Shown here: positions 44,723 through 50,978 of the stretch, one piece after another | Position numbering within the stretch: position 1 is the stretch's first letter | Layout of the letters: the number at the start of each line of letters is the position of its first letter | Made by a program: the position numbers and the translations under genes | The notes under the pieces: generated by a model | What the model saw: the letters and a program-made list of their open reading frames with translations, nothing else | What the model was told of the DNA's origin: nothing | Databases searched by the model: none | NCBI GenBank assembly: GCA_902521645.1 | Contig: CABYSN010000002.1 | Span: 1 to 52,296 of the forward strand | Direction: 5' to 3' | DNA length: 52,296 bases | Origin: Planctomycetota bacterium | GTDB taxonomy: Bacteria > Planctomycetota > Phycisphaerae > Phycisphaerales > SM1A02

Positions 44723-46081
44723 ATGCTCACCATCCATACTCATCCCAAACCCCTTCTGATCGCTCAGATTCGAACCTTTGCGGCAGTTCTTGCCGTTTTT
44801 TTTCTGACGAATCAGATCTCAGGACAGGAGAACGTCCAGCCTGCCGGAATTCGTGTCGCAATTCGACTCATGGATGACGGAAGGGTCACGCAAGTCGTTG
44901 TCGAGAAGTGGGATAGAGTCGGGATACACGGTGCTTTCGGCACGCACCCATGGGGCGCGCTCGAGTATCTTTCCATGAAAAGAACTTTTCAGAAGTTCAT
45001 GGATCGATCTTCGGGAGCGGACTGGTTGATGCTCGGAGAATTGCAGCTGGAGCGGGATGATGTCCGGGGGGACAAGGAATCCGAGGCATCCTTCGTCCAG
45101 GCGCTCCGGCGTGACCCATCTCTGGAGGCGGGCATTCAAGCCGCTCGCAGCCGGGGGATGGAGGCCGATCGCCTTCGCGATGAGGCCAATCGCATCACGG
45201 CTGCCGAAACGCTCCGCGAGGGACTTCCAGAAGGTGTGACCTGGACGGCGAAGCCGTGGCCCATTCTCAGTGACGCGCAGCAGGATGACGCGGTCGCTGA
45301 AATGAAGAAGGACAGTCAGGCATTGCTCGAAGAGGCCGGATTCGAGAATGCGCAACCCGTCGAAACCGAGTATTTCCTGGTCTATTCCGCTCTTGCTCCA
45401 AGAGAGACGGCCTCACTTGTTCGTCAGCTTGATGCGATGTACTCGACGGTCACGAAGCTCCTCGGCATTCCCGAGGGATTGAATCTGTTCTGGGGCAAGG
45501 CGTCGATCTTCATATGCCGCACCTCCGACGAATTTCGATTGATCGAGGCACAGGCCTTCAAGAACATGGTCGCCCCCGGAGTCATCGGACTGTGTCACCA
45601 ACGTGGGCCGAAGGTCTTTGTGAACACCTTTCGTTCCGAGGACGACCTTCAATTCGCATCGACACTCGTTCATGAGACCGTTCACGGGATCATGCATCGC
45701 TTCATATCACCCGTACGTCTTCCGACCTGGGCCGATGAGGGTTTCGCCGAGTACGTCGCCGGGCGTTCCTTCCAAGGTTCTCCGGTCGATTCGAATCGTC
45801 GTCCGCAAGGCCTTCATTTCATTCGCAACGGCGGTGATCTCTCCGCCGTGATCGAGATGAGCTATCAGGACGGCACCTGGCCGGGTGACCAGGCCGTGGG
45901 CTATGCGGTGGGGTATCTGCTGTGCACGACCATGATTCAGGAGAACCCGCGAGGTTTCGCCGACTGGGTCCGTGCGGTCAAGGCCGGGAAGAACTGGAGG
46001 CAGGCTCTCGAGGATGAGTACGGCGTCTCAGTCGATCGGCTCGTCAGGTACGTTCGTCAGCGCCATCTCACCAATGATTGA
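44723..46081 (+). CDS. Exported protein with HExxH metallopeptidase-like motif
   Basis: A 452-residue protein. A long signal peptide ends near NQISGQ. The N-terminal half is helical and polar, without recognised motifs. The C-terminal half carries H317-E-T-V-H321 followed by E339 in WADEGFAEYVAG, an HExxH...E arrangement typical of gluzincin-like peptidases (peptidase MA-like). KVFVNTFRSEDDLQF and VGYAVGYLLCTTMI lie around it. It is probably a periplasmic zinc protease; substrate unknown. The gene is divergent from clpC across 181 bases and converges with the ABC transporter ATPase gene. Confidence 0.8.
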   Translation: MLTIHTHPKPLLIAQIRTFAAVLAVFFLTNQISGQENVQPAGIRVAIRLMDDGRVTQVVVEKWDRVGIHGAFGTHPWGALEYLSMKRTFQKFMDRSSGADWLMLGELQLERDDVRGDKESEASFVQALRRDPSLEAGIQAARSRGMEADRLRDEANRITAAETLREGLPEGVTWTAKPWPILSDAQQDDAVAEMKKDSQALLEEAGFENAQPVETEYFLVYSALAPRETASLVRQLDAMYSTVTKLLGIPEGLNLFWGKASIFICRTSDEFRLIEAQAFKNMVAPGVIGLCHQRGPKVFVNTFRSEDDLQFASTLVHETVHGIMHRFISPVRLPTWADEGFAEYVAGRSFQGSPVDSNRRPQGLHFIRNGGDLSAVIEMSYQDGTWPGDQAVGYAVGYLLCTTMIQENPRGFADWVRAVKAGKNWRQALEDEYGVSVDRLVRYVRQRHLTND

Positions 46082-46086
46082 GGGGC

Positions 46087-47013
46087 TCAATCCTCCTCGA
46101 GCACCCGTCCATTTCGAAGTCTGACGACTCGGTCCGCGTATGAAGCCACTTTGGGGTCATGGGTCACCATCACGATGGTCAGGCCCTTCTGATGTTTCTC
46201 TTTCAGAAGTTCCAGGATTGCCGTCCCCGTCTGCTCATCCAGATTTCCAGTCGGTTCGTCGGCGAGCAGGAGATCGGGGCTGCTTCCCAGCGCTCTTCCG
46301 ATCGCGACACGCTGCCGTTCTCCGCCGGACAATTCCCGGGGACGGTGTCGGTATCGCTCCGCGAGGCCGAAGTCCTTCAGAGTCGATCGGGCCAGATCCG
46401 CAGCCTCTCCGGATCGCATGCGCGTCCTGAGGATGATGGCCTGAGCGATCTGGGACAGCGCGATCATCACGCCCGAGCCGATGATGGCACAGGCCCCGGA
46501 GAGCACGACGCTTCGTACCGGCGTGCGCTCTTCCAGTGGCAGAAGACCCCAGTCTCCCGCAGCCATTCCGCCCAGCCAGGCTCCCAGGAAACCTCCGATG
46601 ATCGCCATCATGAAGATCACAATCCCCGAGCCCTTGCCGCGAGGGACGAGGTTCGAGAGCATTCCGTTCTCCAGCACATCCAGTTCCGGAAGCAGGTGGT
46701 AGAACTGGAAGACGAAGCCGATCGTCTTGTTGCGATAGTGGTTGGTCTTTCCTCCGTCCTGCAATTCGACTTTCGCTCCGCGGTATCGAACGTCACCCGA
46801 GTCGAGGTCCGGCCTGTCGAGACCGGCCAGAATGTGGAGAAGCGTGCTCTTTCCCGAGCCGCTCGAACCGAGAATCGCGACCCATTCGCCTTCCTTGACG
46901 CTGATCGAAGCACCATGAAGGACCGGAACCTCGACCCGACCGAGGCGATAGGTCTTCCGAAGGTCGTCGCCTTGGAGGATCGGTGTCTCGTTGTTCGTGG
47001 CGGAATCGTTCAT
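46087..47013 (-). CDS. lolD: LolD-type ABC transporter ATP-binding protein with an inserted transmembrane hairpin
   Basis: A 308-residue ABC ATPase, against about 230 for LolD. The motifs are in order: Walker A GSSGSGKST (49-57), Q-loop VFQFYHLLPELDVLENGML (Q103), signature LSGGERQR (from 228), Walker B LLLADEP (248-254) and the H-loop His285. Between the Q-loop and signature lies an in-frame ~73-residue insert (about 127-199) with two strongly hydrophobic stretches (IVIFMMAIIGGFLGAWLGGM; SVVLSGACAIIGSGVMIA) joined by an acidic loop. After the insert the normal helical subdomain resumes (ADLARSTLKDFGLAERYRHRP). It should power lipoprotein release with the coupled permease gene, whose stop overlaps its ATG. 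Confidence 0.88.
   Translation of the reverse strand: MNDSATNNETPILQGDDLRKTYRLGRVEVPVLHGASISVKEGEWVAILGSSGSGKSTLLHILAGLDRPDLDSGDVRYRGAKVELQDGGKTNHYRNKTIGFVFQFYHLLPELDVLENGMLSNLVPRGKGSGIVIFMMAIIGGFLGAWLGGMAAGDWGLLPLEERTPVRSVVLSGACAIIGSGVMIALSQIAQAIILRTRMRSGEAADLARSTLKDFGLAERYRHRPRELSGGERQRVAIGRALGSSPDLLLADEPTGNLDEQTGTAILELLKEKHQKGLTIVMVTHDPKVASYADRVVRLRNGRVLEED
46417..46635 (-). other. Transmembrane hairpin insertion in the LolD-type ATPase
   Basis: Residues ~127-199 of the ATPase. Two hydrophobic helices of about 20 and 25 residues are separated by the polar loop GDWGLLPLEERTPVR and flanked by basic residues. The segment replaces nothing, since the flanking LolD-like sequence is continuous across it. 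Boundaries are estimated by eye. Confidence 0.8.
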
Positions 47014-48668
47014 TCGTATCGCAGGGCTTTCACGGGGTCGGTGTCAGCGGCCCGTGCCGCGGGGATCGCGGCTCCGATCACACTGAAGAGGACGGCTCCG
47101 CCCATGGTCAGGAAGGCGGTGAACCAGTCCATCTTGCTTGGAACCTCGTTGAAGTAGTAGACGCTCGGATCCCACAGAAGAAATCCTTGATGCAGGGCCA
47201 GGCCGACACCGACCACTCCGATGATCAGGAATCCGATCACCCCGAGGAGCCAGCGCAGGATCGAACCCTTGATCGCGGCGTGAATCGAGAAGACGACAAG
47301 CACGGCCGCGACCGTGAACGTCGTGATCGTCAGCCAGATCGGTGCCGGTTCGCCCAGAGCGTCATGGATGGCGTTGATGTTGGTCACCACCAACCATCCG
47401 AGACCCACGCCCACGATCGAACCGAGCAGGCCGATCACGAGTCCGTAGATCAGGAAGATGCCCAGAATGCCGGGACGCGACGCTCCGATGGCTCTGAGTA
47501 TGCCGATGTCCCTGGTCTTCTCGTACACGATCGACCAGAAGATCGAGAGCACAAGGCCGGCGCAGACGATGTACACGATGGAGAACAGAATCCTCATCAA
47601 TTCCCGTTCCTTCTGAACGGGCGCGATGATGGAGGCCAGTTGCTGCTCCCATGTCATCACCGAGACTCGGAAGGGGGATGGGGGCTTGACGGTGCGATCT
47701 TCGCGGTCCACGTTGTCGGACCAGAATCGATCATAGGCCTCGGATGCCGCGATTCTCAGCTGATCCGGGGTGAAGCCTTCATTGGCTCGCACGTAGATCG
47801 CGATCGCCCGTGCCGGACTTTCTCCGAGGACGAGTGGCATCCCGGTTTCCGGGTCCAGTTTTCCGGTTTGGTCGTACAGCGTCCCCGATCCCAGACGAAG
47901 CATCTCCTGCGCATCCTGGAGTGAGATGAGCACTCTGTTCTTGTCGATCTCGAAGACGCCGGATTGGAACTCGTTGACGATGCTGAACGCTCTTGATTCC
48001 GGTTCGATCGAGAGCCTGCCGCCCTTGATCGGAACAAGCGTCAATTCGACCTGCTTGCCGGGCATCCAGTAGTTCGTGTCGCCAGCCTGAAAACCATAGG
48101 TTCCATCGGCGCGACGTTCGTTGAACACCGAGATGTGCATGCCCAGCACGATGCCTGGCGCACCGGTGGCCGGGTCCTTCAGGCTCATCGCGGCTTCGGT
48201 CCGGTCCCTGCCGGGGTCCAGGCGCAGGTCGTCCGAAGGCAGTGACTCCGCATCTTCCATCGATGGCGTCCGCCACCAGAGGATGTCCTCATACTCGCTG
48301 ACCCGGTTGAAACTTTCGGGGTCGATCCCCCAGACCTGAACCGTCTCGACCATGTTGTTTCCATCGCCTGTGCCGTATGGCATCTCGATCAGGCCGAAGG
48401 TGTCGATGGTCGGCGTGGCTGCCGCGACTTCGGGAAGCGCCTCGAGGTCTTCGAGCAGATCCTCATAATGGGGTATGCCACTGATCGGGAACCGGATGAC
48501 CACGTCACCCATCATCGTCTTGCCCGATGTTCTGAGCATGTCCAGGAAACCGCTCATGACGCTCACCACGATCACCACGAGCGCGACGCACAAGGCGACC
48601 GCTGCGACCGCGATCCATGGAATGATCCGGCTGGTGAGGTATCTGTTGGCAAGGAGGGCGACGTACAT
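47010..48668 (-). CDS. LolC/LolE-type ABC transporter permease with an extra transmembrane hairpin
   Basis: A 552-residue permease. One N-terminal helix (IIPWIAVAAVALCVALVVIVVSVMSG) is followed by a large periplasmic MacB-type domain (~50-350). FtsX-type helices then begin at ~358 (ILFSIVYIVCAGLVLSIFWSI; ILGIFLIYGLVIGLLGSIVGVG), and the C-terminal helix ends DPVKALRYE, the LolC/E signature. Between NINAIHDALG and LLWDPSVYYFNEVPS, which normally lie close together, is an extra ~58-residue segment (440-497) with two more helices. Six helices are expected instead of four. It probably extracts lipoproteins with the LolD-like ATPase, to which it is coupled by an ATGA overlap. LolA and LolB are not in the window. 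Confidence 0.88.
   Translation of the reverse strand: MYVALLANRYLTSRIIPWIAVAAVALCVALVVIVVSVMSGFLDMLRTSGKTMMGDVVIRFPISGIPHYEDLLEDLEALPEVAAATPTIDTFGLIEMPYGTGDGNNMVETVQVWGIDPESFNRVSEYEDILWWRTPSMEDAESLPSDDLRLDPGRDRTEAAMSLKDPATGAPGIVLGMHISVFNERRADGTYGFQAGDTNYWMPGKQVELTLVPIKGGRLSIEPESRAFSIVNEFQSGVFEIDKNRVLISLQDAQEMLRLGSGTLYDQTGKLDPETGMPLVLGESPARAIAIYVRANEGFTPDQLRIAASEAYDRFWSDNVDREDRTVKPPSPFRVSVMTWEQQLASIIAPVQKERELMRILFSIVYIVCAGLVLSIFWSIVYEKTRDIGILRAIGASRPGILGIFLIYGLVIGLLGSIVGVGLGWLVVTNINAIHDALGEPAPIWLTITTFTVAAVLVVFSIHAAIKGSILRWLLGVIGFLIIGVVGVGLALHQGFLLWDPSVYYFNEVPSKMDWFTAFLTMGGAVLFSVIGAAIPAARAADTDPVKALRYE
47178..47351 (-). other. Transmembrane hairpin insertion in the LolC/E-type permease
   Basis: Residues ~440-497. 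Two hydrophobic helices (IWLTITTFTVAAVLVVFSIHAAI and LRWLLGVIGFLIIGVVGVGLAL) are linked by a short basic turn (KGSILR). They sit in what is normally a short periplasmic loop before the last helix. Boundaries are estimated by eye. Confidence 0.75.
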
Positions 48669-49046
48669 GGGCTTTGGTCCTGATCATACGTCCGTCAGTG
48701 GCCCTTGTCCTCTTTTTCGGTGGCCGGCTCATGGCACTGGGAAGCGCGATTCCCGAGGCATCACCGATCGTCTAGTGGAGCAGCATGATGAATTTTTTTT
48801 TATTTCTTGGCGATGGCCAGCGCTAAATGATATTTTCTAGAGTCTTCCGTCCGGCTTTCTCAAATCTCTACCCCGCCGGGCGGTAACAACATTTTTTGTG
48901 GTCGTGATATGGCCGGTGTTCCCGCAGATCCTGATCAAGAGGTCTCGCTGACATGAGATCCTCGTTTCAGATCTCGTCTTGAGCTCTCTCTACCGGCCCA
49001 TTCTTCGACCTTGCCTTTCCCTAACATTTGTTTGCAAAGAGAAAAA
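48669..49046 (+). other. Intergenic region upstream of the PEP-CTERM gene, no gene seen
   Basis: A 378-base gap between two divergent genes. It is less GC-rich than the surroundings and holds a T-run (GAATTTTTTTTTATTTC) at 48789-48805 and AT-rich segments that could be promoters for either gene. CAGCGCT followed by TATTTTCTAGAG lies at 48818-48842. A weak inverted repeat (GAGAT/ATCTC) is near 48955. I found no convincing ORF, tRNA or small RNA structure. Confidence 0.5.
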
Positions 49047-49655
49047 ATGACTTCTATCAAGACACTGCTTTCACTTTCGGCACTCGCCGTCTTCACATCC
49101 TCGGCCTCGGCCGACCTCATGTGGGACGAAGCAATCGACGGAGATCTCTCCGGTGACTACCTCAATCCGACCCAGCTCTTCACCAAGGGCGTCAACAACC
49201 ACGTGATCTTCACGACCGTCGGTTCCGGCGACAACGGCGGTCAGCAGGACCTTGAGTACTTCACGTTCACGGTCGATGTGGGCTACGAGCTTGCCGCGAT
49301 CATTCTCGATGGATTCGAAACCTCGCCGGAATCGAATCTCGGCTTCATCGGTATCGCTGAAGGATCCGTCTTCCCGACTCCTCCGAATGCGCCCGATGTC
49401 ACGAGCCTCCTCGGCTACGCCCTTCCGGGTGTGACCGACGTCGGTAACGACATTCTTCAGGACATGGGCAGCGGTGGGGGCAGTCAGGGCTTCACCGGCT
49501 CTCTTGGTGCCGGCACGTACAGTTTCTGGGCTCAGGAAACCGCTCCCAGCACGGACGTCTGGGATCTCAACTTCGTGGTCACTGCAGTGCCCGCTCCCGG
49601 TGCACTCGCTCTGCTCGGTCTCGGTGGTCTTGCGGCACGCAGACGACGAGGCTGA
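49047..49655 (+). CDS. Exported protein with PEP-CTERM-like sorting tail
   Basis: About 202 residues. The ATG at 49047 opens a signal peptide (IKTLLSLSALAVFTSSASA); the ORF-track start 36 bases earlier adds a polar leader and is unlikely. The middle resembles a beta-sandwich (DLEYFTFTVDVGYELAAIIL; GAGTYSFWAQE). It ends VPAPGALALLGLGGLAARRRRG, a PAPG motif, hydrophobic helix and Arg cluster, matching the tail of the protein at 16.8-17.5 kb except for single substitutions. The mature protein is presumably handed to the cell surface by an exosortase encoded elsewhere. A strong terminator follows. Confidence 0.85.
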   Translation: MTSIKTLLSLSALAVFTSSASADLMWDEAIDGDLSGDYLNPTQLFTKGVNNHVIFTTVGSGDNGGQQDLEYFTFTVDVGYELAAIILDGFETSPESNLGFIGIAEGSVFPTPPNAPDVTSLLGYALPGVTDVGNDILQDMGSGGGSQGFTGSLGAGTYSFWAQETAPSTDVWDLNFVVTAVPAPGALALLGLGGLAARRRRG

Positions 49656-49688
49656 AAGGCCTGAGTATCGAGAATTCGATTGAATCCT

Positions 49689-49725
49689 CCGCCGTCGGAC
49701 GTTTTCGTCCGACGGCGGTTTCTTT
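49689..49725 (+). terminator. Rho-independent terminator
   Basis: A perfect 13-bp stem CCGCCGTCGGACG/CGTCCGACGGCGG with a TTTT loop is followed by TTTCTTTG. It lies 33 bases after the PEP-CTERM stop codon and ends that single-gene transcript before the glycosyltransferase gene. Confidence 0.9.
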
Positions 49726-49760
49726 GCAGTGATCTGGTACCCTTTGAATACAGCCTATTC

Positions 49761-50978
49761 ATGGATCCCATGCAGATCATCCTCGTCCTTCTCGTCATCG
49801 GCAGCTTCTGCTTCGTGGCCTACTGGTCCGTCGCCTGGTGGCGTCTGGATCGCGCGATGCGCATGTCGATCTCGATGACGGAGGGTCGGCAGCTCGGCAT
49901 CCCCGAGGATGAATGCCCAAAGGTCTCGGTGATCATCCCCGCTCACAATGAAGAAGAGTTGATCGCGCGCTCCGTCAAGGGCATGCGCGCGCAGACCCAT
50001 CCCAATGTGCAGTTCATCTTCGTGCTTGACCGATGCACCGATCGCACCGAAGAGGTGCTGCGTGAGGCAATCGGTGATGACCATCGATTTCTCGTGCATT
50101 CCATCACTGAATGTCCTCCGGACTGGGCTGGGAAATGCAATGCAGCTCGTGCCGGAGCCCGACTCGCGATAGAGAATGCCTCGGACTACCTGCTGTTCAC
50201 AGATGCCGATGTCCTCTTCGATCCGGATCTGGTCCATTCTGCGGTCGCTTTGTCGCTGCGTGAAGAGGCCGACCTTCTGAGCGCACTCAGCACATTGACG
50301 ACGTCCAGCTGGGAGGAGATCGTCGTCCAGCCCGTCGCCTCGCTCAATCTGGTCCGCATGCATCCCACGGATGTCGTGAATCGCGCTGAGAATCCTCGGG
50401 CCTTCGCGAACGGTCAGTTCATGCTCTTCACGCGCTCGATCTATGAAACGATCGGAGGGCATGAGGCCGTCTCCGAAGATCTTCTGGAGGACATCGCCTT
50501 CGCGAGACTGGTCAAGGCCACTGGTGGTCGAGGCATCATGGTGAACGGAGATCACATGCTGGTGGTCTCCATGTACGACTCTCTGGCCTCCATGCAGGAC
50601 GGATGGAAACGCATCTTCATCGAGGTGGCACGTCGGCGCCCCCGTCGCCTGATTCATTGGGGCGTCCGTTCATTCGGCGTGGGTCTGTTCATGCCCGTCA
50701 CTCAGCTTGCAACTTTCGGTGTGGGGCTTCTGGTGATGACCCGAGGGGATGTCTTCGGGATGGTCCTGGCGATGGTCTCGGTCGCATTGGGGTTCCTGAT
50801 GCAGATCGCCGTCCTCTATCGCTTCTATTCCAGAGCGCACGCCGCCAGAATCGGAATCATCGGATACCACGTCGGGTGCGTGCTGGTGGGCATGATGATG
50901 CTTTCCGGGGCCTATGATCTGATTCGAAGACGCCCCATACGTTGGGGTGGACGTGAATACGTGCTCGAGCCAAGGTGA
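49761..50978 (+). CDS. Family 2 glycosyltransferase, membrane-bound
   Basis: About 405 residues. An N-terminal helix (IILVLLVIGSFCFVAYWSVAW) anchors the protein. The GT-A catalytic domain (~55-270) begins VSVIIPAHNEEELIARSVKGM and has the metal-binding DAD in YLLFTDADVLFDPDL and an acceptor-region SEDLLEDIAFARLVK. Three hydrophobic helices near the C-terminus (FGVGLFMPVTQLATFGVGLLVM; MVLAMVSVALGFLMQIAVLY; GYHVGCVLVGMMMLSG) complete it. It transfers a sugar to a lipid or polymer at the inner membrane. The layout recalls HpnB of hopanoid clusters, but the motifs do not prove that. The surE gene follows after 3 bases. Confidence 0.88.
   Translation: MDPMQIILVLLVIGSFCFVAYWSVAWWRLDRAMRMSISMTEGRQLGIPEDECPKVSVIIPAHNEEELIARSVKGMRAQTHPNVQFIFVLDRCTDRTEEVLREAIGDDHRFLVHSITECPPDWAGKCNAARAGARLAIENASDYLLFTDADVLFDPDLVHSAVALSLREEADLLSALSTLTTSSWEEIVVQPVASLNLVRMHPTDVVNRAENPRAFANGQFMLFTRSIYETIGGHEAVSEDLLEDIAFARLVKATGGRGIMVNGDHMLVVSMYDSLASMQDGWKRIFIEVARRRPRRLIHWGVRSFGVGLFMPVTQLATFGVGLLVMTRGDVFGMVLAMVSVALGFLMQIAVLYRFYSRAHAARIGIIGYHVGCVLVGMMMLSGAYDLIRRRPIRWGGREYVLEPR

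Follow-up and report, generated by a model that had tools for sequence, protein, structure and literature searches.

The LolD encoded in the window, i.e. the whole stretch of 52,296 nucleotides analysed here, is a real and unusual variant of the ABC ATPases, with a predicted transmembrane (TM) hairpin in its helical subdomain, and the idea of a 'matched hairpin' unit, in which this hairpin and a second one in the partner permease would work together, is unsupported. We consider it fairly probable that the two genes constitute a lolF-lolD-type transporter with two unrelated helix additions, the ATPase hairpin serving as an accessory membrane anchor on LolD. In multi-protein ABC transporters the ATPase subunits are normally soluble proteins, attached through permease contacts alone; according to our models, the hairpin would convert such a soluble motor subunit into a membrane-anchored one.

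The pair forms a two-gene operon on the minus strand of a Phycisphaerales (Planctomycetota) genome, the permease gene (48668-47010) preceding the ATPase gene (47013-46087). As proposed in the preliminary description, the genes are translationally coupled, both open reading frames being found at these positions with a four-base overlap. The order lolF then lolD recurs in most relatives, and the named ones are mostly Phycisphaerales or Phycisphaerae MAGs of the Planctomycetota.

47010..48668, minus strand: LolF/LolC/LolE-like permease, 552 aa, with a large periplasmic domain (TIGR02212 lolCE, E = 6.3e-52; best Foldseek match LolE)
47010..47013, minus strand: ATGA shared by the permease stop and the ATPase start, a 4-base overlap coupling the genes
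46087..47013, minus strand: LolD-like ABC ATPase, 308 aa, with a predicted TM hairpin within the helical subdomain (TIGR02211, E = 4.4e-66, in two pieces; AlphaFold2)

The Walker A, Q-loop, LSGGE signature, Walker B, D-loop and H-loop motifs of the ATPase are all intact, and the catalytic motifs are invariant in the alignment of hairpin-bearing ATPases. Among 192 NCBIfam families the LolD family TIGR02211 ranked first, its match being split into two pieces that flank the insertion and scoring 222.6 bits, under the NCBIfam cut-off of 307.75 and short of a full-length match; the scores of both subunits below the curated cut-offs are ascribed to divergence and to the insertions. LolD is the nearest solved relative, the E. 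coli protein being among the nearest chains, and the window ATPase departs from a soluble, peripheral LolD devoid of membrane segments in having two hydrophobic helices predicted at aa 127-198.

46843..46869, minus strand: Walker A motif GSSGSGKST, aa 49-57, nearly invariant in two alignments
46318..46332, minus strand: ABC signature motif LSGGE, aa 228-232, invariant in two alignments
46420..46635, minus strand: ATPase insertion, aa 127-198, between Q-loop and signature motif (gap in the E. coli LolD alignment; segment length)
46558..46632, minus strand: predicted TM helix 1 of the ATPase hairpin, aa 128-152 (AlphaFold2; hydropathy; 15-sequence alignment)
46411..46521, minus strand: predicted long helix 2 of the ATPase hairpin, aa 165-201 (AlphaFold2; alignment)

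The alignment with E. coli LolD covers aa 12-127 and 199-306 of the ATPase and leaves over about 70 residues, in the loop joining the two helices of the helical subdomain; the variable segment comprises 95 residues in the window vs 21-28 in relatives without insertion. Two 19-residue stretches of the insertion have a mean Kyte-Doolittle hydropathy of 2.1, and AlphaFold2 modelled the ATPase with an overall pLDDT of 90.2 and a pTM of 0.82, the insertion blocks reaching pLDDT 82-95. Among 20 hairpin-bearing ATPases, the mean hydropathy over both 19-residue stretches ranged between 1.5 and 2.9, and the net charges (+1.65 and +0.45 at the flanks, -0.95 at the turn) followed the positive-inside rule, with a weaker bias at the C-flank in five isolated lineages described below. 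These charges fit a predicted topology in which the hairpin enters the membrane from the cytoplasm and turns in the periplasm. The hairpins of the window clade (15 genomes) share a pattern of small residues, G-s-x-h-G-A-x-h-G in helix 1 and h-h-G-s-A in helix 2, as would be expected for tight helix packing, together with a conserved Q-h-x-Q at the cytoplasmic end of helix 2. Membrane insertion of both the ATPase and the permease hairpins is well predicted, and the window ATPase is probably anchored in the membrane by its own hairpin. Aromatic and basic residues are often found in the same loop of non-hairpin relatives (51/75, an uncontrolled count), which suggests that this loop already lies near the membrane surface in them.

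The best fold matches of the ATPase correspond to targets of about 215-250 aa or to MacB-type fusions, and a comparable insertion is absent from all of them. A literature search, which covered few subscription papers, found nothing on point regarding ABC ATPases with inserted TM helices. In the SMC/Rad50 and UvrA ATPases, too, a large insertion separates the Q-loop region from the signature motif; unlike the membrane hairpin predicted here, these insertions are soluble (coiled coil, DNA-repair domains). Two other forms of LolD were observed among the relatives. Three sequences, L135 (G202), L139 (G172) and L152 (G152), bear a single hydrophobic helix in the same loop (WYWYLLLAAGIIPG in G202), possibly an intermediate or a remnant of the hairpin; L113 (G183), L118 (G233), L126 (G211) and again L139 (G172) have about 41 extra residues at a different site, between Walker A and Q-loop.

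For the permease, TIGR02212 was by far the best NCBIfam family, with 176.9 bits against a cut-off of 362.45, and its fold is that of LolE/LolC, LolE chains being the best Foldseek matches (E = 1.4e-23, TM-score 0.74-0.75 by target). In E. coli LolCDE, LolC and LolE have four TM helices, the LolC shoulder is an 18-residue loop between TM3 and TM4, and LolE has a surface shoulder helix (PMC8333309); the window permease differs in its six predicted TM helices and its long shoulder.

47490..47516, minus strand: permease helix, aa 385-393 (AlphaFold2), in the position described for LolCDE (PMC8333309)
47160..47363, minus strand: shoulder-loop insertion between TM3 and TM4, aa 436-503, 68 aa vs 16 aa in four-TM relatives without hairpin
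47268..47339, minus strand: extra permease helix, aa 444-467 (AlphaFold2 block pLDDT 91-96)
47193..47261, minus strand: extra permease helix, aa 470-492 (AlphaFold2 block pLDDT 93-94)

The charges of the permease hairpin mirror those of the ATPase hairpin (+1.83 at the turn, 86 permeases), and a mirrored topology with a tight cytoplasmic turn is predicted from them. The proposal that both genes carry independent two-helix insertions is borne out by the E. coli LolD alignment, hydropathy, AlphaFold2 and recurrence in relatives. Two further LolF-like permeases, L013 (G066) and L282 (G255), carry a still longer insertion at the shoulder, where about four additional TM helices separate TM3 from TM4, with an ordinary LolD adjoining.

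Fold, gene order and best families agree on a Lol-type system. Both subunits have E. coli LolCDE (PDB 7arh, 7mdx, 9rlc and others) among their nearest solved relatives, together with LolF/LolD. LolFD is reported to be the commonest Lol form in Gracilicutes, with LolF as a homodimer and lolF-lolD as the typical order (PMC11784454). The window pair resembles it in gene order, LolE-like permease fold and LolD-like ATPase, and differs in having six predicted TM helices rather than four in the permease and a TM hairpin predicted in the ATPase. MacB and other type VII ABC transporters share the FtsX/MacB_PCD domain of the permease and the ATPase fold, MacB differing as a fused protein. The Lol machinery of this planctomycete group also departs from the E. 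coli model in that LolA, expected in a genome with the LolFD pathway, is unrecognised in most genomes of the window's family: PF03548 identified it in only 3 of 61 and in one of 43 near-complete ones, although E. coli LolA was found in the control, and a divergent LolA is possible. Because LolA is mostly unrecognisable, function as a 'lipoprotein exporter' is uncertain. A matching permease occurs in 148 of 150 genomes of the class, so the transporter family matters there.

The occurrence of the two insertions was surveyed in the gene pairs of 101 genomes from the window's family, about 60 from the other families of the order and further genomes sampled from the class, the family census being based on the 91 genomes with a readable permease. 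ATPase loop segments of 21-28 aa (34 in one case outside the family) were scored as lacking an insertion, those of 47 aa as a single helix (3 genomes) and those of 91-108 aa as a hairpin (20 genomes), these lengths being clearly apart; outliers with WL = 145 and 165 (extra residues before the Q-loop) and G181, with 139 (pattern mismatch), were not scored as hairpins. Permease segments measured 16 aa without insertion, 68-71 aa in the window's family, 84-87 aa in another family and 168 aa, with four extra TM helices, in a third.

The permease hairpin was present in 91/91 family genomes, of which 19 had the ATPase hairpin, three a single ATPase helix and 69 no ATPase insertion; the permease hairpin was thus found without the ATPase hairpin in 72/91 (including the three with a single helix). 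Outside the family, 15 of 74 genomes, belonging to two other families, carried one or two hairpins in the permease, 51 lacked any and eight were unreadable, and the ATPase hairpin was found in 0/74. All 19 ATPase-hairpin pairs with a readable permease had a hairpin permease, and the converse, an ATPase hairpin alone, was never found in the census. Obligate co-occurrence is thereby rejected, and the single functional unit suggested in the preliminary description is unsupported on the same counts; finding either insertion often by itself was named there as the refuting observation, and this was seen for the permease hairpin and not for the ATPase hairpin. The dependence between the two is one-way, every ATPase hairpin lying within the hairpin-permease family. 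In the complete family set the ATPase hairpin occurs in 24 of 181 genomes and 10 of 45 genera, and a scan of 294 genomes of the phylum revealed no additional hairpin LolD at E <= 1e-48, a search that a distant LolD with a non-aligning hairpin would escape. This recurrence in 24/181 genomes and the purifying selection described below, along with the universal presence of the permease hairpin in the family, show that the insertions are not due to chance or assembly error.

In a tree built without either insertion, the ATPase hairpin was distributed over the window clade, spanning five genera, and five isolated lineages, implying 6 changes, and no loss was detected throughout the window clade. 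A two-state model likewise gave a loss rate of about zero, 6 gains and a probability below 1e-4 for a hairpin in the family ancestor. The permease-only tree rejected the hairpin ATPases as a single clade (AU p = 2e-56), and a single origin followed by many losses, requiring 12 losses vs 6 gains, is disfavoured. The ATPase-only tree (208 columns) did not reject one clade (AU p = 0.112), and fewer gains combined with gene exchange are not excluded by that gene alone. Comparisons with hhalign matched the window-clade hairpins to each other (probability 96.8, E = 2e-10). No recognisable relation was found between these and the hairpins from the five isolated lineages (probability <= 2.5), and this held also when core divergence was equal, e.g. 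for ATPase cores 69% identical. Given the trees and this lack of recognisable similarity, the ATPase hairpin likely had at least two origins, five or six fitting best.

No homology of the ATPase hairpin with the permease hairpin was detected (hhalign probability <= 4.7), and a common origin of the permease hairpins across the three families was also rejected, local alignment to the nearest of them covering only the shared end after the hairpin. Since the hairpins of the other two families have no convincing similarity, the permease shoulder loop too has probably accepted hairpins repeatedly. Within the family, 5-6 changes of state are reconstructed for the ATPase hairpin, whereas the permease hairpin is constant. 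In a tree of 172 genomes, all 5 ATPase-hairpin gains fell in the family with the hairpin permease, to which 45% of the total branch length belongs; the resulting P = 0.018, under a uniform rate, is the sole remaining sign that the ATPase hairpin depends on the permease hairpin, with family membership as a confounder. The confinement of all ATPase hairpins to one family implies that they may require something specific to it.

In the two closest pairs, dN/dS was 0.27 and 0.33 for the ATPase insertion, 0.06 and 0.07 for the ATPase core, and 0.24 and 0.18 for the permease hairpin. The ATPase hairpin is therefore constrained by purifying selection, yet evolving 4-5 times faster than the core, which leaves room for a tolerated insertion of little function. 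We found no sign of co-evolution between the hairpins: at a core identity of 0.8-0.9, permease hairpin identity was 0.48 between two genomes with the ATPase hairpin, 0.51 between two without and 0.49 in mixed pairs, with no extra constraint seen on the permease hairpin alongside the ATPase hairpin.

These results are consistent with a two-step scenario. On the family stem, the periplasmic shoulder between TM3 and TM4 would have gained a TM hairpin, raising the permease from four to six TM helices, to be kept in every family member. Later, and in several lineages, the helical-subdomain loop of LolD would have grown into a TM hairpin spanning the inner membrane with a periplasmic turn. The transporter would comprise a presumed permease homodimer and two LolD copies, LolF2-LolD2 being the natural assumption because one permease adjoins the ATPase in the window. 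We infer a tethering role for the ATPase hairpin and a docking place beside the permease, where it might hold LolD, raising its local concentration or limiting its movement and leaving catalysis unchanged. A stronger version of this scenario, in which the shoulder helices of the permease were the precondition for an ABC ATPase embedded in the membrane and LolD, once the permease hairpin existed, repeatedly evolved a TM hairpin docking on it, so that five or six lineages independently acquired an ATPase integral to the membrane, is conceivable but doubtful.

Several alternatives compete with the anchor. That the hairpin is a tolerated insertion, random extensions of a membrane-facing loop having become embedded and been retained without benefit, would explain the repeated, sequence-unrelated gains at one site, the single-helix forms in three genomes, the separate gains in the shoulder loop of permeases from other families and a dN/dS above that of the core; it is rather unlikely given that dN/dS is far under 1 in close pairs and that the window clade conserves both the hairpin and its small-residue pattern. 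Packing of the ATPase hairpin against the permease hairpin, in a dedicated and permanently assembled unit, draws on the complementary topologies, the consistent pairing with hairpin permeases, the lack of ATPase hairpins in the outside genomes (51 of them without the permease hairpin) and the restriction of the gains to the family. We deem it unlikely, however, because the permease hairpin is so commonly kept alone, inside and outside the family, the ATPase state shifts in lineages where the permease hairpin stays unchanged, and the identity of the latter is equal across the pair classes.

A regulatory hairpin, sensing or gating a lipid, substrate entry or a partner protein in the membrane and thereby altering ATPase coupling, would suit the position of the insertion, since in ABC ATPases the part of the helical subdomain running from Q-loop to signature motif is a relay between nucleotide and permease, as well as the conserved glycine pattern and glutamines of the window clade; the unchanged catalytic core, and the lack of detectable sequence common to hairpins of different lineages, which argues against one specific ligand, make it improbable. 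Finally, the support for membrane insertion being prediction only, the segment might be a helical hairpin that is soluble or lies at the membrane interface, or might have arisen as an error of assembly; both are very improbable in view of the hydropathy and charge bias maintained across 20 proteins and of the presence of the hairpin in 24 separately assembled genomes.

The same LolD loop has thus given rise to predicted TM hairpins probably several times within one bacterial family. As related genomes with and without the hairpin have closely similar ATPase cores, they provide a natural experiment on whether an ABC transporter profits or suffers from having its motor anchored.

Three neighbours of the operon were also recorded. 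A 452-aa protein without Pfam match (44723-46081) contains a HETVHG stretch resembling a metalloprotease active site. Adjoining the transporter on the opposite strand, a small protein (49011-49655) bears a PEP-CTERM sorting signal, weak and under the cut-off of PF07589. A GT2 glycosyltransferase on the plus strand (49680-50978) ends in the C-terminal motif RWGGREYVLEP, which is shared with a protein adjoining lolF-lolD in G102 (L009) and G084 (L010).
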